A stretch of 30,095 bases of DNA, taken from a virus. The stretch is taken from positions 1 through 30,095 of IMG/VR virus record IMGVR_UViG_3300029448_000262; one strand, 5' to 3'. This document shows positions 8,917 to 24,320 of the stretch, one piece after another; the first letter of the stretch is position 1, and every line of letters begins with the position of its first letter. The position numbers and the translations under genes were made by a program. Under the pieces are notes generated by a model. That model worked only from the letters and a program-made list of their open reading frames with translations, did no database searches and was not told the origin of the DNA.

Positions 8917-11226
8917 ATGGCAACTCTTTACGACAGATTTAAAAATCTATTTACAAGCAAAAACTTACAAAGAACAGCAGAGGCATACAACAGGGCTGTT
9001 TTTAATTATATAGGCAATAACATTGTCTTTGCCAAGGAAAATGATGACACTTATATAAATCATGGTTACAGACGTAATGCAACAGTTTACTCTATCATAA
9101 ATATTATAGCAAAATCTTGTACGACAATCCCATTTATGATATATGAAAAAAAATCTAACAACGATCTAAAAAGATATAAGTCAATTACATCATCCGGTCT
9201 TGACACTAATACATTACTGAAAGCAGAGCAGTTAAGAAAGTCAGCATTGGTAGAATTAGAAGACACAGAACTGCATGAGTTACTGAATAGACCAAACCCT
9301 GCTCAATCTTATAATTCATGGCTTACAGAAATCGTTGCGTTTGGTAAACTAACTGGTAACAGGTATATTTATGGTATTGGCCCTGAGACTGGTGGCAATT
9401 CTAAAAAATACAAAGAACTATATGTGTTGCCTTCACAACTAATGGAAATCGTATCAGGGGGCATTATGAACCCGGTCAAGGCTTACAGACTTGATTACAA
9501 AGGTAGATACGATATTGATGCTGAGGACATATTACACATCAAAGATTACAACCCTTATTATGATGGCACAGGCTCGCACCTTTATGGCCAGTCACCACTC
9601 AAGGCAGGACTTAGAACATTAACAACAAACAACGAGGCTGTGACTACTGGTGTTAAGTTTTTACAGAACCAAACAGCAAGAGGTGTTTTATATGCAGACG
9701 AAGGTGATCTAACTGAAGTGCAAGCCCAGGCATTAAAAGATAAATTCAAACGATCACACCAAGGCTCAGCAAATGCAGGTGATGTCATTATTACACCAAA
9801 GAAGTTGTCATGGGTAAACTTTGGACTAGATGCCTCTGATCTTTCATTGATCGAACAATATAATGCATCAATCAAAGACTTAGCAAATATATTTTCTATT
9901 CCTGCAATTCTGCTCAACAACACAGAGTCAAGTACATACAATAATGTAAAAGAGGCCAAAAAGAGTTTATATCAAAACTGCGTGATGCCTGAAATGATAA
10001 AAATAAGGGATGAACTAAACAGATGGCTTGCCCCTAAGTATGGCGATAAAATTTATATTGACTTTGATTTCAGTGTCATCCCAGAACTGCAAGAAGAGAT
10101 GGACAAGGTTGTGCAACAACTGTCTCAATCCTGGTGGCTAACAATGAATGAAAAGAGGGGTGCCATGAATTATGGTGTTGACGAAGATGACGAAAAGTTA
10201 AACGATTACTATATTCCTGCAAACCTTATCCCTTTAAATGCTGTTGACAATGAGCCTGTTGAGCCTGTTGACTCTGACGTTGACAAGTCAATTGATAAAA
10301 TAAACCTAAAACGTAAAGTGCCAGGAATGACTGATGTGTTTACAACAAGAGGTGAGGCTGAAGATAGGGCTGAAGACCTTGGGGGTCGTGGTTTTCACAG
10401 ACACCAGTTTGATGGTGAAGATGTTTATATGCCCTTTGAATCGCATGAACAGTATGAGAGAGCCATTGAAAGACAGAAAGAGTATCACAACATGGAAGAT
10501 GATGACAAATACCATTATGGTGAACCCCATGAAGATGAGGATGACAAGTATTATCATGATGACGAAGACAAAGCACCAAGTATATCAGGCAGAGTCGAAA
10601 CTGCTCTTAGACGTATGGTCAGTGAACATAATGAAGAACATGGCGACAAAGCATCTTCAAGAGCAACTTATGGAATGTTAGCAAGTTCTTTTCGTAGGGG
10701 AATCGGTGCTTACAGAACAAACCCATCATCTGTAAGGCCAAACGTAAGGTCTGAAGAACAATGGGCCTTTGGTCGTGTATCTGGTTTATTGTATGCTCTT
10801 AGAAACAATAGATTTAGAAGAACACCTTATGACAGGGATTTATTACCTTCAGCGCACCCACTGTCGAGTAAAGAAAAATCATATACAAGAAAACAAATGT
10901 TTGATGATTACCCACAGAGTGCAACCAATAACGCAAGGAGAGTAAAAAACTGGATTGATAAATATGGCAGGGATGAGGTTGATGGAATGACAAAGGTTGG
11001 TCTTGCCAGAATGAATCAATTGATTGCAAGAGAATCATTATCATTATCAACATTAAAAAGAACTTATAGTTTCTTGTCAAGAACAAAAGGTGGTGGATAC
11101 AATAAAATAAACCCTGACTACAAAGACACACCTTGGAAAGACAAAGGTTATGTTGCTTTTTTAGGATGGGGTGGTCAATCAATGCTCAGTTATGCAGAAC
11201 GTAAACTTGACCAAATAGATGAATAA
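8917..11226 (+). CDS. Portal protein with three-part C-terminal extension
   Basis: A 769-residue protein. Residues 1-430 are an HK97-type portal: the N-terminal VYSIINIIAKSCTTIPFMIY region, the HIKDYNPYYDG strand and the SLIEQYNASIKDLANIFSIP helix that line the DNA channel. Most such portals end near 400-450 residues. Here an acidic linker leads to three extra segments: 471-515 (MTDVFTTRGEAEDRAEDLGG, then the FHRHQFDGEDVYMP strand), 557-654 (RRMVSEHNEEHGDKA, RRGIGAYRTNP, EQWAFGRVSGLLYALRN, DRDLLPSAHPLS) and 664-769 (YPQSATNNARRVKNWIDKYG, PWKDKGYVAFLGWGG). I recall similar segments in other marine phage structural proteins, but their function is unknown. The segment at 515-557 is His/Asp/Glu rich. 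The gene shares one base with the MuF gene. Confidence 0.9.
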   Translation: MATLYDRFKNLFTSKNLQRTAEAYNRAVFNYIGNNIVFAKENDDTYINHGYRRNATVYSIINIIAKSCTTIPFMIYEKKSNNDLKRYKSITSSGLDTNTLLKAEQLRKSALVELEDTELHELLNRPNPAQSYNSWLTEIVAFGKLTGNRYIYGIGPETGGNSKKYKELYVLPSQLMEIVSGGIMNPVKAYRLDYKGRYDIDAEDILHIKDYNPYYDGTGSHLYGQSPLKAGLRTLTTNNEAVTTGVKFLQNQTARGVLYADEGDLTEVQAQALKDKFKRSHQGSANAGDVIITPKKLSWVNFGLDASDLSLIEQYNASIKDLANIFSIPAILLNNTESSTYNNVKEAKKSLYQNCVMPEMIKIRDELNRWLAPKYGDKIYIDFDFSVIPELQEEMDKVVQQLSQSWWLTMNEKRGAMNYGVDEDDEKLNDYYIPANLIPLNAVDNEPVEPVDSDVDKSIDKINLKRKVPGMTDVFTTRGEAEDRAEDLGGRGFHRHQFDGEDVYMPFESHEQYERAIERQKEYHNMEDDDKYHYGEPHEDEDDKYYHDDEDKAPSISGRVETALRRMVSEHNEEHGDKASSRATYGMLASSFRRGIGAYRTNPSSVRPNVRSEEQWAFGRVSGLLYALRNNRFRRTPYDRDLLPSAHPLSSKEKSYTRKQMFDDYPQSATNNARRVKNWIDKYGRDEVDGMTKVGLARMNQLIARESLSLSTLKRTYSFLSRTKGGGYNKINPDYKDTPWKDKGYVAFLGWGGQSMLSYAERKLDQIDE

Positions 11227-14653: not shown

Positions 14654-15028
14654 ATGAACAGAAACCAAAAAGGATGTTTTGCTGAATATCATTTTTCAAC
14701 AACTGCAATGAAAAATGGTTTTAATGTTTCTGTGCCACTTTTAGACTCAAGCCCTTATGATTGCATCTTAGAAAAACAAGGTAAACTTTTTAAAATACAA
14801 GTCAAATATTTAGGTGAAAAAAGATATAAGCATGGTCGATCTGTGCAAGTTACATTGAAAAGAGAGGGGAAAAAAAACTACGACTTAGAACTTGTTGATT
14901 TTTTTGCACTGTGGCATGAGGTTAGAAATGGCTTTTACATAATTAAAAATATTGGTCAAAAAAGTTTTAAAATTACAGACAATGGTATTTATGAAAATAA
15001 TTTTAATAACTTTGTATTATTAGTTTAA
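14654..15028 (+). CDS. PD-(D/E)XK endonuclease-like protein
   Basis: A 124-residue protein of the PD-(D/E)XK group that includes small Holliday-junction-resolvase-like and intron-associated endonucleases. Motifs: NQKGCFAEYHFSTTAM (Glu in the first helix), DSSPYDCIL (metal-binding Asp) and FKIQVKYLG (Q-x-K core, a common substitution for D/E-x-K). A basic stretch (RYKHGRSVQVTLKREGKKNY) would contact DNA. It lies between two strong terminators with its own -7-like box, interrupting the normal order capsid then connector, as mobile or cargo genes do. It might be a free-standing homing-type nuclease, a defence or competition factor, or a resolvase. The role is not determined. Confidence 0.75.
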   Translation: MNRNQKGCFAEYHFSTTAMKNGFNVSVPLLDSSPYDCILEKQGKLFKIQVKYLGEKRYKHGRSVQVTLKREGKKNYDLELVDFFALWHEVRNGFYIIKNIGQKSFKITDNGIYENNFNNFVLLV

Positions 15029-16163: not shown

Positions 16164-16606
16164 TGAAAATTGAGGCTAAAATAAACAGTGCTGATTTAGG
16201 TTTATTACAAAGTAAAATAAATTCATTAAAAAAGTTAGCCAGTCAAGAACTTTCCAATGAAATAGGAAAAACGGCATTTGGAATTGAAAGAAGGGCCAAA
16301 AGAACTGTGCCTGTTGATACTGGTGGCCTTAAACAATCAATAAAAACATTTCATTCTGGGAAAAAAGCATTTGTAGAGGCTGGAAAAAAATATGCGCCAT
16401 ATATTGAATTTGGCACTGGTTCAAAGGTTGATTTGACAGACATGCAAGAACTTGGCATCCCAAAATCTTATGCTTTACAATTTAAAGGCAAAGGCAAACG
16501 TAACGTTAATATAAGACCACAACCTTTTTTGTTTCCATCGGCAAGAATAGAATTTTTAAATTTGTTAAAGAAATTACAAAATAAAATCAATAAAATAATA
16601 AAATGA
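16163..16606 (+). CDS. HK97 gp10-like neck protein
   Basis: A 147-residue protein of the HK97 gp10 family: helices around ELSNEIGKTAFGIERRAKR, then TVPVDTGGLKQSIKTF (the VDTG.L..S motif) and KYAPYIEFGTGSK. It acts at the head-tail interface or in tail completion. The C-terminus is Lys/Asn rich. The ATG overlaps the previous stop by one base, and the stop overlaps the tail-terminator start by four. Confidence 0.92.
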   Translation: MKIEAKINSADLGLLQSKINSLKKLASQELSNEIGKTAFGIERRAKRTVPVDTGGLKQSIKTFHSGKKAFVEAGKKYAPYIEFGTGSKVDLTDMQELGIPKSYALQFKGKGKRNVNIRPQPFLFPSARIEFLNLLKKLQNKINKIIK

Positions 16607-17040
16607 AAGACCCGGCTAGATTTATACGTCAAAAAATTATTACTGCTCTTTCAGGAAACATCACCTACGATGGTTCTGCTGTGCCGGTTTATGGAACAGT
16701 GCCAAGCACGACAGGTTTTCCATACATTAGAGTGTATGGTGTGAACACTGTTGAAGTTGACCAAAACCGGTCATCATTCACCACAGAGGTTACAACAAGA
16801 ATAGAAGCAGTGAGTCGTTTTATAACAGATGATGGTGGTGAATTAACTACAAACTCATTAATTTCAGATTGCTTAAATTTGTTAAGAGTTAGATCAGGTA
16901 GTTACATAAACCTGTCTGGCGATGGTTTTAAGGTTTATACGAGTGTGATTGGTAATATTAATTATTTAAGAGAAGACACCAAAAACAACACTTATTATAG
17001 AGCGATATTGGAACTAGAAAACAGAGTTTTAGAAATATAA
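16603..17040 (+). CDS. Tail terminator / completion protein (DUF3168-like)
   Basis: A 145-residue protein with the DUF3168-like layout: an N-terminal helix, VPVYGTVPSTTGFPYIRVYG, a strand-rich middle and a C-terminal YYRAILELENRV strand. It should cap the tail tube and join it to the neck. The order gp6, closure, gp10, terminator is typical of HK97-like siphoviruses. What follows departs from that order: the lysis block and tail fibre separate it from the tail tube gene at 25202. Confidence 0.82.
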   Translation: MKDPARFIRQKIITALSGNITYDGSAVPVYGTVPSTTGFPYIRVYGVNTVEVDQNRSSFTTEVTTRIEAVSRFITDDGGELTTNSLISDCLNLLRVRSGSYINLSGDGFKVYTSVIGNINYLREDTKNNTYYRAILELENRVLEI

Positions 17041-17043
17041 GTT

Positions 17044-17352
17044 ATGTCAGATATAAATTCAGAATCAAAATTAAAATTAACTCTAAAAGAAGTGATTGCT
17101 GTTGTGATTGGTTTGGCGAGTTTGTTTGGTATTTATTTCACCTTGCAAGGCCAGGTTGATAATAATTCTGAAGACATCACAAGCCTACAAGATGAGGCTG
17201 TAAACCCTGTTGAGTTTCAATATAAAGACGAACTTGTTAGATCGTCAATACTTAGAATCGAAGATAAAACAAATTTTTTAGCAGATGACATTGAGTCAAT
17301 TAAATCATCGGTTGAAAAAATTGAGCAACGTTTATATGAAATTAAAAGATAA
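17044..17352 (+). CDS. Inner-membrane coiled-coil protein, candidate i-spanin or lysis accessory
   Basis: A 102-residue protein with one transmembrane helix at residues 17-34 (VIAVVIGLASLFGIYF). Lys residues precede it and acidic residues follow, predicting N-in, C-out topology. The periplasmic part ends in a coiled coil (residues 60-102, ILRIEDKTNFLADDIESIKS). This is the topology of an inner-membrane spanin subunit. It overlaps the gene for the exported Trx-fold protein by 17 bases and sits at the head of the lysis block. Against a classical spanin pair, no outer-membrane lipoprotein with a lipobox follows. It might instead be a holin regulator. Confidence 0.72.
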   Translation: MSDINSESKLKLTLKEVIAVVIGLASLFGIYFTLQGQVDNNSEDITSLQDEAVNPVEFQYKDELVRSSILRIEDKTNFLADDIESIKSSVEKIEQRLYEIKR

Positions 17353-17689
17353 AATATGTGTCCTGTTAACTGTCCTTTATGTATCTATTGCGAGTAGTCA
17401 AAATTATAAAAACAACGTCAGTGTCGTGGTTTTTAATGCTGATTTTATCGGGCAAAAAGTTGACGTCAAAGATTTCAAACAAGTTGACAAGTATCTGTTT
17501 ACATTTGAAAACGATAAACATAAAAAGCACTTTCAAAAAGAAAAAATAATCTACATGCCGACACTGTTGCTTTTTAACAATGGTGAAGAACTTATAAGAA
17601 TTGAAGCAGGTATTGACCTTAAATTACCTGATGGTTATAAAAATAAAATCAAAAATAAATTAGAACAACTTTTACAAAATAAATTTTAA
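17336..17689 (+). CDS. Exported thioredoxin-fold protein lacking CxxC
   Basis: A 117-residue protein with an N-terminal signal peptide (residues 1-22, hydrophobic CVLLTVLYVSIAS ending SSQ) and a mature thioredoxin-like fold: strand VSVVVFNA, helix, strand KYLFTFEN, helix, then IIYMPTLLLFNNGEELIR, where Pro75 is the cis-proline position. The redox CxxC pair is missing, so the protein is more likely a binding or chaperone module than an oxidoreductase. I choose ATG 17336, because the in-frame ATG at 17285 would put 17 residues before the signal sequence. It ends one base before the outer-membrane protein gene, and co-expression in the periplasm suggests the two act together. Confidence 0.75.
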   Translation: MKLKDKICVLLTVLYVSIASSQNYKNNVSVVVFNADFIGQKVDVKDFKQVDKYLFTFENDKHKKHFQKEKIIYMPTLLLFNNGEELIRIEAGIDLKLPDGYKNKIKNKLEQLLQNKF

Positions 17690-17690
17690 G

Positions 17691-18863
17691 ATGAAAAAAC
17701 TATATATCATATTCCTACTTTTTACAATCACAATTAATGGCCAAGTATTCAAAAAGGCTTATGATGAGATTTTTAAATATTCAACAGTCTTTGTTGCTGG
17801 TAGCGCGCAAAATTCATATGAGCCAGAAAGACGACAGTATTTTGTGAGAACCCCAGAGGGTGCTGGTTTGTACGACATTCCTGACGTATATGATGCCACT
17901 GTGGTGCATCCTTACAGGTATCGTTATGGTTTTGGTATTAGAAAAATTGGATTGTTTGATTTTGAAAAAAGAGATAAAAATTATTATGATGGTAATGAAA
18001 ATCTTGTTGCATTATCAGCACCAACATCAAGTGTGCCAGGAAATTTAGAGTATTTATTCTTTTGGCAAAAAGAAAGAGACAGGGGTGAACTTTTTACCAA
18101 TACCAGGTATTTCATAAGACACACAGGTAAATGGCACATTGTAAAAATAGAACAAAGATCAAATGAAAGAGTAAATTTTAAATACAATTCAGGTGAATTA
18201 AGGTTAAGAATTCCAATAGGCAAGAAACTAAGTGTTTCTTATGGTGGCATTTACAGAACACATACAAGAAGTTATGGATACAACCCTTTTGAAATATGGG
18301 TTAATGAGTTAGACGACAATGGTAATCCAATTAACCCCTGGTATTCTCTTGCATACGAATTTGGCTGGGTTGATGAGTTGTATCAATATACAAATCTTGC
18401 AACCGGTGAATCATCTTATGACTGGGTTTGGACTGACCCTGATGGTAATATTAGGGCAAGAACAGACTTAGAGTTCAGGGATGGCCCTTTTAAGTCAATC
18501 ATTGCAGAATATAACAACCAGCAATGGGATAAAATACCAGAATTTCAAATGATTTCACAGATTGTTGGTTTTGATTATTATTTACAAAATCAAAAATTTT
18601 GGGTGCATCTGTTTGGTTCTTACTTATTTTCACATAAATACATTGGTGGCTCTGATATTGAAAAGAGTTATTTGCACAGGAATAATTTTGGAAAAGGTGG
18701 ACTAATAAAAGATGCTCAACCAGAACAATGGGAAGACTTTACATTTGGTGCAACAATAGGATGGAAACTTAACAGATTTGGTATTTTCTTAGATGGTGAG
18801 TTTACAAGATATTGGTCGTCTGAAATATTTAATACACAGATTGGTGTTAATTTTAGATTATGA
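17691..18863 (+). CDS. Phage-encoded outer-membrane beta-barrel-like protein
   Basis: A 390-residue protein with a clear signal peptide (MKKLYIIFLLFTITINGQ, cleavage near residues 17-18). The mature part is strand-rich, with many alternating hydrophobic/polar segments (ELRLRIPIGKKLSVSYGGIY, FWVHLFGSYLFSH, FTFGATIGWKLNRFGIFLDG), aromatic girdle residues and a C-terminal strand ending IGVNFRL. These are features of an outer-membrane barrel; Flavobacteriia barrels often end in a hydrophobic or aromatic residue. Long Asp/Gly/Asn-rich segments (for example near residues 200-250) would be surface loops. It overlaps the amidase gene by ATGA. It might alter the host surface (exclusion of other phages, receptor masking) or act in lysis as an outer-membrane step. 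A structural role is less likely because of the signal peptide. Confidence 0.75.
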   Translation: MKKLYIIFLLFTITINGQVFKKAYDEIFKYSTVFVAGSAQNSYEPERRQYFVRTPEGAGLYDIPDVYDATVVHPYRYRYGFGIRKIGLFDFEKRDKNYYDGNENLVALSAPTSSVPGNLEYLFFWQKERDRGELFTNTRYFIRHTGKWHIVKIEQRSNERVNFKYNSGELRLRIPIGKKLSVSYGGIYRTHTRSYGYNPFEIWVNELDDNGNPINPWYSLAYEFGWVDELYQYTNLATGESSYDWVWTDPDGNIRARTDLEFRDGPFKSIIAEYNNQQWDKIPEFQMISQIVGFDYYLQNQKFWVHLFGSYLFSHKYIGGSDIEKSYLHRNNFGKGGLIKDAQPEQWEDFTFGATIGWKLNRFGIFLDGEFTRYWSSEIFNTQIGVNFRL

Positions 18864-19291
18864 GAAAAATCGACAAACTCATTGTGCATTGTTCTGCCAC
18901 CCCAGAGTTTAAATATTTTGATGTTGATGATATTACGGAATGGCATGTAAAGGGCAATAAATGGTCTGATTGTGGGTATCATTATGTGATTACATTAGAT
19001 GGTAAAATACAGGAAGGAAGGCCAATTGAAAAGCAAGGTGCTCATGTTGCCGGCATGAATAGGCACAGCATTGGTATATGTTATATTGGGGGCATGGATA
19101 AAAACATGGATTTGTGGCTAGACACCAGAACAACAGAACAAAAAGACTCATTATTTAATTTGCTTATGGATTTAAAATTTCAATTTCCTGAGGCTGTTGT
19201 TTATGGTCATAATGATTTTACTGATAAAAAAGTCTGTCCTTGTTTTGATGCTTTTAAAGAATATCGTGAAATCTCAAATTATACTGAATAA
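18860..19291 (+). CDS. N-acetylmuramoyl-L-alanine amidase (endolysin, T7-lysozyme type)
   Basis: A 143-residue Amidase_2 (zinc amidase) that cuts the bond between N-acetylmuramic acid and L-alanine in peptidoglycan. Catalytic features match T7 lysozyme: His10 (IVHCSATP), Tyr40 (CGYHYVI), His117 (YGHNDF), Lys124 and Cys126 in DKKVCPCFDA. No signal peptide is present, so release needs the holin. Its length is that of the bare catalytic domain, with no wall-binding module. It overlaps the outer-membrane gene by 4 bases and the holin gene starts two bases after its stop. Confidence 0.95.
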   Translation: MRKIDKLIVHCSATPEFKYFDVDDITEWHVKGNKWSDCGYHYVITLDGKIQEGRPIEKQGAHVAGMNRHSIGICYIGGMDKNMDLWLDTRTTEQKDSLFNLLMDLKFQFPEAVVYGHNDFTDKKVCPCFDAFKEYREISNYTE

Positions 19292-19293
19292 CT

Positions 19294-19692
19294 ATGTTAA
19301 AACTATTAATGTCACTTATTGGTAAAAAAGGCGATGGTCTTGGTGGTTTTGCCACAGACATTAGAGAGGCAATCAAAGGCAAAGAGATTGACCCAAACAA
19401 AGCACTTGAACTTGTAAAATTACAAAATGAGATCAACAAGGTAGAGGCACAGCATCGTTCTGTTTTTGTAAGTGGTTGGCGACCTTTTATTGGTTGGGTT
19501 TGTGGTGTGGCTTTGGCTTATAATTTTATAGTGCGCGATTTACTAACATGGTTTATGACAAATTATTATTCAGAGTTAGGAGTTACGATGCCACCTGCTT
19601 TACAAATGGAACATTTGATGACAGTGCTTTTGGGCATGCTTGGTCTTGGTGGTCTTAGAACTTATGAAAAACTAAAAGATAAGTCTAAGTAG
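19294..19692 (+). CDS. Holin (GTA-type three-helix family)
   Basis: A 132-residue protein matching the GTA_holin_3TM family. It has a charged N-terminal helical region (residues 20-55), the signature SVFVSGWRPFIGWVCGV at 56-72, membrane segments around 64-92 and a last one around 107-121 (MTVLLGMLGLGGLRTYEK). The GWRPfigW and GLGGLRTYEK blocks are diagnostic. It should form the inner-membrane lesion that releases the endolysin encoded two bases upstream. The stop shares one base with the small basic protein gene. Confidence 0.9.
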   Translation: MLKLLMSLIGKKGDGLGGFATDIREAIKGKEIDPNKALELVKLQNEINKVEAQHRSVFVSGWRPFIGWVCGVALAYNFIVRDLLTWFMTNYYSELGVTMPPALQMEHLMTVLLGMLGLGGLRTYEKLKDKSK

Positions 19693-19850: not shown

Positions 19851-22800
19851 ATGGCAACACTTACAGGACAAACTATTGCCTCAACTTATGATGGCTTATT
19901 AAAATTATCGGACAATGATGGATTAACAGCATCGGTCAAAAACATACAAGATGGCCTGGGTGTAAGTTCGCCAGTAAACATTTCAACTGCTGTCTTATTT
20001 ATAAAACCAACATCTGACACTAGTTCGACACCAACATCAGGCAAAGAGTTTGAGGTTGTTGGTAATGCTTTAATTACAGGCGATTTACAGGTTGACAATA
20101 TCAATATTGATGGCAACACAATATCTGCCAGCAGTGGTGTTGTAACATTGGCTAGTGGTGCGATTGCGACAACTCAAACTCAAAATGACAATTCAACAAA
20201 GATTGCAACGACTGCCTATGTTGACTCAGCAGTGGATGGTGTTGACACACTTGCCGAGATTCTTGCAATAGGTAACACAACAGGTTCAACTAAAATATCG
20301 GTAAACAATTCAAGTAGTGGGATTGACTTTGTTGATAATGCAAAAGCAAGGTTCGGGACTGGAAATGACCTAGAAATCTACCACGATGGTTCTAATAGTT
20401 ATATAGATGATACGGCAGGTACAGGCTCACTATATATTAATACAAATGCCTTTAGATTAGTAAGTGCTAACAAAGGAGAAAATATGATTCGTGCTTTTGA
20501 AGATGGTGCAGTAATTTTATGTCATAACAATTTAGATAAACTAACAACCACAAGCACAGGTGCGACTGTTACAGGAAATTTACAGGTAACAGGCTCTAGT
20601 GGCGATACACTTACTTTAACAAAAGGATCAACAGAGCCATCTTTAAGAATCGAGGGGGATACAGACAAAGATTTTGTTTTAACTATTTCTGCAGAAACTT
20701 TTTCAATTACTCAAAATGATGGTGCGACTGACATTCTAACTTTAGATCACGATACTAAAAACGCAACTTTTGCAGGTGATGTAAAAATTGAAGAAGCATC
20801 AACACCTACGTTAGAATTAATTGACACTACCAATAATTATAATTTACTTATAAGACATAATAATACAAATGCAGTATTTGACACACACGCATCATCTTAT
20901 TATGAATTTAAAATTGGCGATAGTCAAAAACTTCTTATTGACAATTCAGGAAACGCAACTTTTGCAGGAAATGTTTCAATGGGTAAATTAACTGTTGAAG
21001 ATTCAGGTGCTGATTTAATTGATATGACACGAACTGGTGTAGGTACATATAGACTTGCAATTTCAGGTAGTGATGCGTTCAGTATTTTTGACGTAGGTGC
21101 TAATGCAGATAGAGTTATAATTGATTCGTCAGGTAATACAACTTTTGCAGGTGATGTAAATATTACAAATAGTAAACTACAAATAACTAGTGCTAGTCCT
21201 GAAATTATATTAAGTGTTCCTGGTGGTGGTTTAGATAGTCGTATATATAATGATGGAAGTGGAAATTTTATTATTGGAAATGGTACTAACTCAGCAACCC
21301 CAACAACTGCGTTAACTATTGATAGTTCACAAAACGCAACTTTTGCAGGTAATGTAGATTTACTTGATAATAAAAAAATACAAGTCGGTTCTAGTCAAGA
21401 TTTAAAATTGTATCACGATGGCAGTCATTCTATTATACAAGATTCGGGAACAGGTGTTTTAAAAATAATAACCTCAGGTGTAACTTTTCAAAACGAATCA
21501 GCATCTGCAAACACTTTAGTTCTTGATTCATCAGGCAACGCAACCTTTGCAGGAGATGTAAGTTTAGCAGATAGTAAAAAAGTATCACTTGGTGTATCTG
21601 ATGACTTCAATATGTCTCATAATGGAACAGACACAACTATTCAAAATATTACAGGACATCTAAATATTATAAACAAATCAAATGACTCGGACATTATATT
21701 TAGTAACGATGATGGAAGTGGTGGAATTACAGAATATTTTAAACTCGATGGTAATAACGTAAATGTAAGAGTCAGTCAAAATTTTAGTTTTAATGATAGT
21801 GTAAAATCGGCTTTTGGAAATTCAGGGGACCTACAAATCTATCACGATGGAAGTAATTCTTACATACAAGATACAGGAACAGGAAATTTAAGAATAAGAG
21901 GTACTAACTTAAGATTAGAAAGTGAAAGTTTAGTACATAATTTTTTAATTGCTACCGAATCAGCAGGTGTACAGATTTTTTATAATGATGTTCAAAAATT
22001 TACAACTACAAGTACAGGTGTTACGGTTACAGGTGGTGTAATAGCAAGTCGTGATGGTAGTTTTGGAACATCAGGTGCAACAAATAATTCAAGTGTAAAA
22101 GTTCTTGATGGTTCTATAATTACAAAAATTCAATCACAAACATCAGGCGATACAGCAGGAATACTTGGGACTGAAAGTAATAACGTTTTAAGATTAGTTA
22201 CAAATAACATATCTGCATTAACAATAGATGCATCACAAAATGTAGGCATAGGCACAACAGGTCCATCGGCTAAATTTGAAGTAAAAGCGAAAGGTAGCGC
22301 ATTAGGCTCTACTGGTTATTTTATAAATTCTCTTTTTAAAGATACAGGTCAAAATGTTGGTATTGTAACTGCTCACAATGACACAGATAATGGGGTTGGT
22401 GTTATTGCAGGTATTAATAGTTTAGCATTTGTTACCTATGGGTCAGATTGGACTCAAGCATTATTATTAGATACATCACAAAACGCAACTTTTGCAGGTA
22501 ATATTAGTTTAGCAGATAGTAAAATATTAAGAATCGGCTCAAGTAATGACCTTGACCTCCTGCACGATGGAACAAATACACAAATAAGCAACAATACAGG
22601 TGATTTACAAATAATAAATAACGCAAACGACAAAGATATTGTGTTTCTTTCTGATGATGGTTCTGGTGGAACTGCTGAATACTTTAAACTAGATGGCTCT
22701 GATGCAGTTTTAAGAATACATAAAAGAACTATAATAGATGACAATGTAAAATTAGATTTTGGTACTGGTCAAGACCTACAAATATATCACAATGGCTCAA

Positions 22801-24320
22801 ATTCTTTTATTGATGATGTTGGTACTGGCAGTTTGTTTATAAAAACAAGTGCTTTATTTGTTAGAAACCCAAGTGATGCTTCTATGATAGATGCACAAAG
22901 TGGGGGTGCAGTAAACTTATATTACAACAACAGCAAAAAGTTTGAAACTACAAGCACAGGTGTAAGTATAAGTTCGACAGGCGCAGGTGCTATTGCAACA
23001 GTTGAAGCAGGTGATGGCAACCAAGCAAGTTTAGATTTAAAAAATACAGAGGGGCATTACAGATTAATTACAGATGGTGGCGAATTTAAAGTATTTGACC
23101 AAACAGACTCTAATCAACCATTTACAATAAATACATCGGGTCAGATTGGCATAGGTACAACAAGCCCATCAAGTTTGTTGCATTTAGAAAGTGCATCTAG
23201 TCCGACTTTAAGATTAGTTGATACAACAAATAGTGTAACATTATTAGCATTTGCACAAAATACAAATACAGGTTTTGGAAATTTTTCAAATCATCCATTA
23301 ATTTTTTACACAAATAGCACAACTGCTTTAACAATAGATACATCACAAGACGCAACCTTTGCAGGTCAAATTAGTGGTATAGGTGGTAGTGCAGGATCAC
23401 CATCGTATATATTTGAGGGGAATACAGATACAGGGTTTTTTCATCCTGCAGTAGATGCAATAGGCTTTTCAACGGCAGGTTCAGAAAGAATGCGAATAAC
23501 ATCATCTGGTCTGGTAGGCATAGGCACAACAAGTCCATTACAAAAATTAGACACACCAAACATTATCATTGGTGGTACATCAATATCAGCAAGTTACAGA
23601 GCAAACGCAACTTTAATGGACAATTTAAGTGGTGTGGCAAGATTTTACTCTTTGGGTTCTGATAATTCAACAGGTGGTTCTTATCAATTTAACTCACTTT
23701 CTGCTGATGGATCGGCAGGTTCAGGCACAATACTAACAATCGCAAACGATGGAGACGCAACTTTTGCAGGTACAGTAACTTTGCTAGATACAAAACAACT
23801 TATTTTAGGTAATGCAAATGATTTTTCCATAGTACACGATGCAACTGAAACTTTTATTGCAAATGATACAGGAAACCTTACAATAGTCAACAACACAAAT
23901 GATGGCGATGTTATATTCAAATCTGATGATGGTTCAGGTTCTACGACAGAATATTTTAAACTCGATGGTAGTCAAACTATTCTTGATGTCGCAGTTAGAA
24001 CACTTTTTAGAGATAGTGTAAAAGCAACATTTGGCGCAGGTTATGACTTGGTTATATATCACGACTCAGCAAATTCTTATGTAGAACAACAAGGCACAGG
24101 GGATTTAATCATAAGAAATAGTGCAAATGACAAAGATATTAGGTTACAAACAGATAATGGTTCGGGCTTGGTGACAGATTATATATTACTTGATGGTAGT
24201 GATGTGTCAACAAAAATATTAACACAAAAAGTAATAATGTCTAATCTACCAACAAGTGACCCTAATAATGCAGGTCAATTATATCTTGAAAGTGGTTTTA
24301 TGAGGGTTTCGGCTGGTTAA
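19851..24320 (+). CDS. Large repetitive tail fibre protein
   Basis: A 1489-residue fibre, about 15 percent of the genome. The N-terminus (MATLTGQTIASTYDGLLKLS, then a GNALITGDLQVD strand) probably attaches to the tail. The body alternates two repeat types: LEIYHDGSNSYIDD(T)GTGSL units and DSSGNATFAGDVSL-like units, with VGIGTTSP repeats in the distal third. Both are common in marine phage fibres, where they form trimeric beta-helical shafts. The C-terminus is short, LPTSDPNNAGQLYLESGFM then RVSAG; no Peptidase_S74 chaperone domain is visible, unlike many fibres with the same repeats. It should bind the host receptor. The -7 box is 22 bases upstream and no terminator follows. Confidence 0.9.
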   Translation: MATLTGQTIASTYDGLLKLSDNDGLTASVKNIQDGLGVSSPVNISTAVLFIKPTSDTSSTPTSGKEFEVVGNALITGDLQVDNINIDGNTISASSGVVTLASGAIATTQTQNDNSTKIATTAYVDSAVDGVDTLAEILAIGNTTGSTKISVNNSSSGIDFVDNAKARFGTGNDLEIYHDGSNSYIDDTAGTGSLYINTNAFRLVSANKGENMIRAFEDGAVILCHNNLDKLTTTSTGATVTGNLQVTGSSGDTLTLTKGSTEPSLRIEGDTDKDFVLTISAETFSITQNDGATDILTLDHDTKNATFAGDVKIEEASTPTLELIDTTNNYNLLIRHNNTNAVFDTHASSYYEFKIGDSQKLLIDNSGNATFAGNVSMGKLTVEDSGADLIDMTRTGVGTYRLAISGSDAFSIFDVGANADRVIIDSSGNTTFAGDVNITNSKLQITSASPEIILSVPGGGLDSRIYNDGSGNFIIGNGTNSATPTTALTIDSSQNATFAGNVDLLDNKKIQVGSSQDLKLYHDGSHSIIQDSGTGVLKIITSGVTFQNESASANTLVLDSSGNATFAGDVSLADSKKVSLGVSDDFNMSHNGTDTTIQNITGHLNIINKSNDSDIIFSNDDGSGGITEYFKLDGNNVNVRVSQNFSFNDSVKSAFGNSGDLQIYHDGSNSYIQDTGTGNLRIRGTNLRLESESLVHNFLIATESAGVQIFYNDVQKFTTTSTGVTVTGGVIASRDGSFGTSGATNNSSVKVLDGSIITKIQSQTSGDTAGILGTESNNVLRLVTNNISALTIDASQNVGIGTTGPSAKFEVKAKGSALGSTGYFINSLFKDTGQNVGIVTAHNDTDNGVGVIAGINSLAFVTYGSDWTQALLLDTSQNATFAGNISLADSKILRIGSSNDLDLLHDGTNTQISNNTGDLQIINNANDKDIVFLSDDGSGGTAEYFKLDGSDAVLRIHKRTIIDDNVKLDFGTGQDLQIYHNGSNSFIDDVGTGSLFIKTSALFVRNPSDASMIDAQSGGAVNLYYNNSKKFETTSTGVSISSTGAGAIATVEAGDGNQASLDLKNTEGHYRLITDGGEFKVFDQTDSNQPFTINTSGQIGIGTTSPSSLLHLESASSPTLRLVDTTNSVTLLAFAQNTNTGFGNFSNHPLIFYTNSTTALTIDTSQDATFAGQISGIGGSAGSPSYIFEGNTDTGFFHPAVDAIGFSTAGSERMRITSSGLVGIGTTSPLQKLDTPNIIIGGTSISASYRANATLMDNLSGVARFYSLGSDNSTGGSYQFNSLSADGSAGSGTILTIANDGDATFAGTVTLLDTKQLILGNANDFSIVHDATETFIANDTGNLTIVNNTNDGDVIFKSDDGSGSTTEYFKLDGSQTILDVAVRTLFRDSVKATFGAGYDLVIYHDSANSYVEQQGTGDLIIRNSANDKDIRLQTDNGSGLVTDYILLDGSDVSTKILTQKVIMSNLPTSDPNNAGQLYLESGFMRVSAG
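20763..23770. repeat. Dispersed 14-bp repeats in the fibre gene
   Basis: GCAACTTTTGCAGG or a one- or two-base variant occurs at 20763, 20955, 21139, 21336, 21540, 22485, 23352 and 23757. It encodes the core of the NATFAG unit. Near-identical codon choice between copies suggests recent duplication or gene conversion and gives sites for recombination within the shaft. Confidence 0.8.

Follow-up and report, generated by a model that had tools for sequence, protein, structure and literature searches.

A three-gene envelope module inherited together beside endolysin genes in uncultured phages

The genes P1, P2, and P3, which lie in front of the endolysin gene of a virus from IMG/VR, code for a coiled-coil protein of the inner membrane, a redox-dead thioredoxin that is exported, and a predicted outer-membrane barrel, and they are inherited together beside endolysin genes. 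The trio was analysed in a 30,095-base virus record (IMGVR_UViG_3300029448_000262), referred to as a whole as the window, and in its relatives. The best explanation, which we put forward tentatively, is that the trio forms an envelope-spanning lysis module that links the inner and outer membranes and is spanin-like in function, though not by membership. It is possible, but more doubtful, that the trio represents a new type of outer-membrane disruption system that is widespread among uncultured phages, with a barrel taking the place of the lipoprotein spanin and a redox-dead thioredoxin as the link between this barrel and an inner-membrane coiled coil.

How phages without spanins pass through the outer membrane has been an open question in print (PMC6139136). 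Such phages make up 91 of 677 Gram-negative phages (about 13%), and the Bacteroidota phages B124-14, P2559S, and P2559Y are listed among them (PMC6139136). The prediction that "an OMP could act as an o-spanin" was made by Kongari et al. (2018; PMC6139136), and in a later survey Bacteroidetes phages had only unimolecular spanins (PMC12596118). The trio is a concrete, conserved, and widespread candidate of the kind foreseen in PMC6139136, that is, an OMP in the o-spanin role, and it is carried by phages without a cultured representative. No published description of the module was found in the open-access literature. For annotation, the gain is three families to name.

Layout of the locus

An earlier note on the window had described three exported or membrane-bound products of an overlapping or nearly abutting gene run that is coupled to amidase and holin genes. 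Both points hold. The features are as follows:

16603..17040, + strand: tail terminator (phrog_176), which precedes the module and is given for context
17044..17352, + strand: P1, 102-aa inner-membrane protein with a transmembrane (TM) segment at about residues 16-36 and a periplasmic coiled coil of ~63 aa
17336..17689, + strand: P2, 117-aa exported thioredoxin-fold protein, redox-dead, without a lipobox
17691..18863, + strand: P3, 390-aa outer-membrane protein with a signal peptide and a predicted 12-strand beta-barrel
18860..19291, + strand: endolysin, N-acetylmuramoyl-L-alanine amidase (Amidase_2; PF01510, phrog_822)
19294..19692, + strand: holin-like 3-TM protein (PF11351 GTA_holin_3TM, phrog_3427)

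All of these genes overlap or abut; the overlaps are 17 nt for P1/P2 and 4 nt for P3/amidase, and a gap of 1 nt separates P2 from P3. The ATG at 17336 is favoured as the P2 start over position 17285, since relatives begin there and the signal peptide is then N-terminal. The trio is not a chance reading, because it is conserved in many divergent phages. Its position after the tail terminator might suggest virion proteins; this reading was rejected on account of the signal peptides of two of the three proteins and the TM segment of the third.

Several other genes of the window deserve mention. A portal-like gene (8917-11226, 769 aa) has a His/Asp/Glu-rich C-terminal extension of about 300 aa. 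Between the capsid and connector genes lies a 124-aa protein (14654-15028) that looks PD-(D/E)XK nuclease-like by eye and is retained in the relatives L002, L003, and L009-L013. A 1489-aa protein (19851-24320), probably a tail fibre, contains many 'ATFAGDV' repeats, which vary between the relatives L002 and L003, otherwise ~95-98% identical.

The three proteins

The expectation that P1 is an inner-membrane protein with a periplasmic coiled coil agrees with the properties of its family. An N-terminal TM segment, at about residue 15, is present in 111 of 118 relatives, and its N side is more positively charged than its C side in 102 of these 111, which places the N-terminus inside and the coiled coil in the periplasm. 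About 63 residues follow the TM segment, and the last 42 aa show a strong heptad pattern (median z 4). This predicted topology fits that of an i-spanin or a class III holin; in particular, the family shows what is expected of an i-spanin, namely type II topology in the inner membrane and a coiled coil in the periplasm. P1 also weakly matches phrog_1296, annotated as holin (E 4e-4).

P2 had been described as a signal-peptide thioredoxin-fold protein without CxxC, and its relatives bear this out. The P2 alignment profile matches PDB thioredoxins (E 7e-7), and 13 of 19 members match Pfam Thioredoxin (best E 2.5e-6), while the window copy alone stays below the cut-off. When 131 relatives were aligned to E. 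coli thioredoxin, the cis-Pro was kept in every one, whereas the active-site cysteines Cys32 and Cys35 occurred in none at either position, mostly with Asn instead (position 35 is Asn in 89/131). Thus, P2 resembles Thioredoxin (PF00085, TIGR01068) in fold and profile but differs from it by export and by loss of the redox CxxC active site. The signal peptides carry no lipobox (0/131), and in 108 of the 131 they end in a small-x-small cleavage site followed by Gln (Ala/Ser-x-Ala/Ser/Gly, then Gln). This pattern is common in Bacteroidota.

P3 matched no family above cut-off in Pfam, PHROGs, NCBIfam, or PADLOC, and a search of PDB sequences with its profile returned no match. An AlphaFold2 model built from 52 sequences (pLDDT 75, pTM 0.68), which superseded a poor model from 15 sequences (pLDDT 61), contains 12 long antiparallel strands. 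Its best structural match is Tsx (Z 15.4; 200 residues superpose with an rmsd of 3.8), followed by KdgM (Z 13.7), NanC (13.5), LpxR (12.3), OMPLA (11.1), and a designed 12-strand barrel (10.0); autotransporter barrels are also among the best matches, and many unrelated barrels score alike. The fold that the model shares with known barrels shows no function. In BFVD, the best structural match is A0A516LKJ4 (E 3e-23, 26% identity). Hydrophobicity alternates between the two faces of the strands, and conservation is higher on the polar, lumen-type face (3.82 vs 3.16 bits, p 5e-9). With a signal peptide, an even number of amphipathic antiparallel strands, and matches to solved barrels, P3 is predicted to be the signal-peptide outer-membrane barrel that the earlier note had seen in it. 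It has no lipobox (0/93).

Although Tsx, KdgM, NanC, LpxR, and OMPLA share the predicted 12-strand fold, P3 is only about 10% identical to them, is phage-encoded, and has a large conserved insert of ~90 aa (residues 192-284) between strands 7 and 8. If the N-terminus of P3 is periplasmic, as in other barrels, this insert is expected to lie outside the cell. The lumen and the outside loops are strongly conserved, the outer loops as much as the barrel, and lumen-side polar residues together with His144, His149, and His191 are invariant.

Relatives, spread, and host

An alignment-based scan of IMG/VR identified at least 469 stretches that encode P3 relatives; the search proceeded from two close copies through an amidase-anchored set and 22 loci found by alignment scan to the 469. 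Beyond the nearest kin, P3 relatives share 44-57% identity with the window copy. Among 50,697 sequenced phage records, no relative of P1, P2, or P3 was found at E values up to 10, with divergent members and the P3 consensus included.

The terminase of the window is nearest to those of Bacteroides/Phocaeicola phages (about 36% identity), and the P2 cleavage sites are Bacteroidota-like, which makes a Bacteroidota host plausible for the window phage. The earlier assignment to Bacteroidota phages thus agrees with terminase and signal peptides, but the sole match among GTDB genome records (L076, NZMJ01000013.1) is a contig in a metagenome-assembled genome labelled Maricaulis (Alphaproteobacteria). 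This contig has phage-like neighbouring genes and carries the trio, an M15 endolysin, and a holin; it is either a misbinned phage or a sign of an unexpected host.

Neighbourhoods and evolution of the trio

The earlier note had proposed a check for co-occurrence of the trio beside amidase and holin genes elsewhere. Neighbourhoods were sampled from the best 80 of the at least 469 P3 stretches, and 56 loci among these 80 distinct P3 copies had enough flanking DNA. The P1-P2 pair adjoined P3 in all 56, directly upstream in 47, and an endolysin lay within 2.5 kb downstream in 47 (14 amidases and 33 M15 peptidases, PF08291); these loci belong to related phages and are the best-scoring part of the set, so the counts are not independent trials. 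A PF11351-type holin was also present in 38 of the 56. After P3 copies at least 92% alike were dropped, 63 trios were left, 57 of which had an endolysin, either an amidase or M15, no farther than 3.5 kb away.

The order P1-P2-P3 was found in 43 of these 63 trios and P3-P1-P2 in 20; the latter occurs on contigs that include the largest ones (e.g., 61, 77, and 113 kb). Moreover, 13 cassettes have the order P1-P2-P3-P1'-P2'-endolysin, and in one locus (L105) the trio comes after an endolysin of a third type, PG_binding_1 plus Amidase_2. The trio is thus kept intact across two gene orders and three kinds of endolysin. Median gaps are -4 for P1/P2, +2 for P2/P3, and -4 for P3/endolysin. In a sample anchored on M15 endolysins, 56 loci had upstream room: 31 contained the trio, 8 only P1-P2, and 17 neither, and P3 without P1-P2 was seen in none of them. 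Together with the adjacency of the three genes, these counts tie the trio to lysis cassettes as one unit.

Homologues that occur apart from each other and away from lysis genes had been named in advance as evidence against this linkage, and such cases exist in part. P1-P2 pairs are found in endolysin cassettes without P3, and in one group (L054-L065) the intact trio is flanked by a tail-terminator-like gene on one side and a tail gene on the other, with the M15 endolysin and holin ~18 kb downstream on the same record.

The 64 P2 copies that immediately precede P3 fall into a single clade (SH-aLRT 96), and the second P2 copies of the same cassettes cluster with P2s from cassettes that lack P3 (support 98), in a tree with few columns whose deeper forks are weak. 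Evolutionary distances correlate best for P1-P2 (r 0.61) and also for P2-P3 (r 0.34), while the P3-endolysin correlation corrected for P2 is 0.09. Thus, the trio behaves as a unit that swaps endolysin partners.

Comparison with spanins

Like the two-component spanins lambda Rz/Rz1 and T4 PseT.3/PseT.2, the trio includes an N-in inner-membrane protein with a periplasmic coiled coil and an exported partner, is encoded by genes that overlap or adjoin in a lysis cassette beside endolysin and holin, and spans the envelope on paper. In contrast to them, it has three components, with a 12-strand barrel in place of the lipoprotein, a thioredoxin fold in between, and no lipobox. With the u-spanins (T1 gp11 type) it shares the presumed job of outer-membrane disruption and, presumably, the host type (PMC12596118), but P1, P2, and P3 all lack the lipobox and C-terminal TM segment that u-spanins combine in one protein.

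The earlier remark that classical spanins are not visible is supported by a scan for lipoboxes, which covered all frames and all starts of the coding strand. No lipobox protein that could be an o- or u-spanin was found on the coding strand of the window or of a complete 32.4-kb trio record (G001; L072, L055, L073), and the same scan picked up 37 of the 40 proteins of a lipoprotein family that occurs in related cassettes. The trio phages do not show the unimolecular spanins expected from PMC12596118. Since a lipoprotein component was sought and not found, also in none of the 131 P2 and 93 P3 proteins, by membership the trio does not count as a spanin.

It was considered as well whether the trio takes the place of lipoproteins. 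A Pro-rich lipoprotein (LPP) lies near the endolysin in 12 of 70 trio cassettes and in 6 of 24 cassettes without P1-P2-P3, a difference that is not significant. Functional replacement of lipoproteins is thus unsupported, and there is no clean replacement of an o-spanin, because LPP is not significantly rarer in trio cassettes.

Function

In the lysis module that we tentatively prefer, P1 would be the inner-membrane arm, P2 a periplasmic adaptor whose conserved cis-Pro groove may bind P1, P3, or both, and P3 an outer-membrane anchor standing in for the lipoprotein. Upon removal of peptidoglycan by the endolysin, the trio would assemble or collapse, and the outer membrane would thereby be destabilised, disrupted, or unseated, so that P1-P2-P3 would complete lysis there as spanins do, with other parts. 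The constant adjacency of the three genes, the nearby endolysin in 47 of 56 loci, the gene overlaps, the P3-linked P2 clade, and the distance correlations argue for this model, as do the negative lipobox scan of the window and G001 and the expectation that an OMP may serve as an o-spanin (PMC6139136). Against it stand the L054-L065 trio ~18 kb from lysis genes, LPP in 12 of 70 trio cassettes, P1-P2 pairs in P3-less cassettes, a sample made of related loci, and the strong conservation of P3 in its lumen and outside loops, which a mere anchor would not need.

The same conserved lumen and loops would suit a role in lysis timing, in which P1 would act as a T4 T-type holin (single-TM, N-in/C-out), P2 as an RI-type periplasmic antiholin that binds the periplasmic domain of P1, and P3 as an outer-membrane sensor of superinfection or envelope state that delays or triggers lysis. 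This analogy is one of topology: P1 has one TM segment and a periplasmic C-terminal domain, and P2 is its putative periplasmic partner. The match of P1 to the holin-annotated phrog_1296 is consistent with it, and so is the pair P1-P2, which coevolves most tightly and adjoins endolysins also without P3. Moreover, a small 2-TM protein (sTM, 46-66 aa) occurs in 9 of 24 cassettes without the trio and in none of the 70 with it, which may be a lineage effect. However, unlike the T4 system, trio cassettes usually have a separate 3-TM holin, located after the endolysin in 43 of 70, and a membrane-proximal coiled coil is no less in keeping with a linker than with a hole-forming holin. We consider a timing role somewhat unlikely.

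Phage outer-membrane exclusion proteins, such as lambda Lom and T5 Llp, are known, and they lend some weight to superinfection exclusion or progeny protection. Late P3 in the outer membrane, with P1 and P2, would then block a receptor or DNA entry, or stop released phages from sticking to debris. The conserved insert predicted to lie outside and the lineage with the trio away from lysis genes fit such a role, but adjacency to three endolysin types is hard to explain by it, and a receptor blocker should vary in its outer loops, which in P3 are as conserved as the barrel. The trio also had no match at E 0.01 in PADLOC, although that collection is not one of phage exclusion proteins. We consider exclusion unlikely. 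It is quite improbable that P3 itself attacks the outer membrane as an enzyme or a pore (an OMPLA/LpxR-shaped phospholipase or LPS deacylase, or an open channel), delivered or activated by P1-P2. The fold matches to LpxR and OMPLA and the invariant histidines and lumen-side polar residues would agree with this, whereas channels (Tsx, KdgM, NanC) and autotransporter barrels score best, many unrelated barrels give similar scores, and the OMPLA/LpxR catalytic motif was not recognised by eye.

The earlier suggestion of an alternative outer-membrane disruption system or an exclusion system is supported in part, by the tie to lysis cassettes, but the sequence cannot separate disruption, exclusion, and lysis timing. 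If exclusion or lysis timing should be true instead of the envelope-spanning lysis module, the trio would still be a new envelope-spanning phage module present in hundreds of genomes.

Additional genes of the cassettes

Related cassettes carry several further proteins. LPP is Pro/Tyr-rich ('HVLA.T..GDT..I....I.P'), lies beside endolysins (L014:6718-7101, L119:9570-9953, L127:10257-10763), and is a candidate o-spanin family. In P3-less cassettes, sTM (..DIKLYLINTTALAFSF..LRIILLVVTIVYTIKK; L007:4497-4655, L014:5864-6004, L020:246-422) is possibly the true holin. On a phage contig with a related cassette (L019:767-2607), the gene for a GroEL-like chaperonin of 527 aa comes before that for a GroES-like protein of 85 aa. 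Finally, a protein of 45-55 aa, termed s45 (...EYYPIDE..ELNIYLLLFVIHFKVY), is located between the endolysin and the holin in many cassettes (L007:5716-5853, L009:6420-6557, and others).
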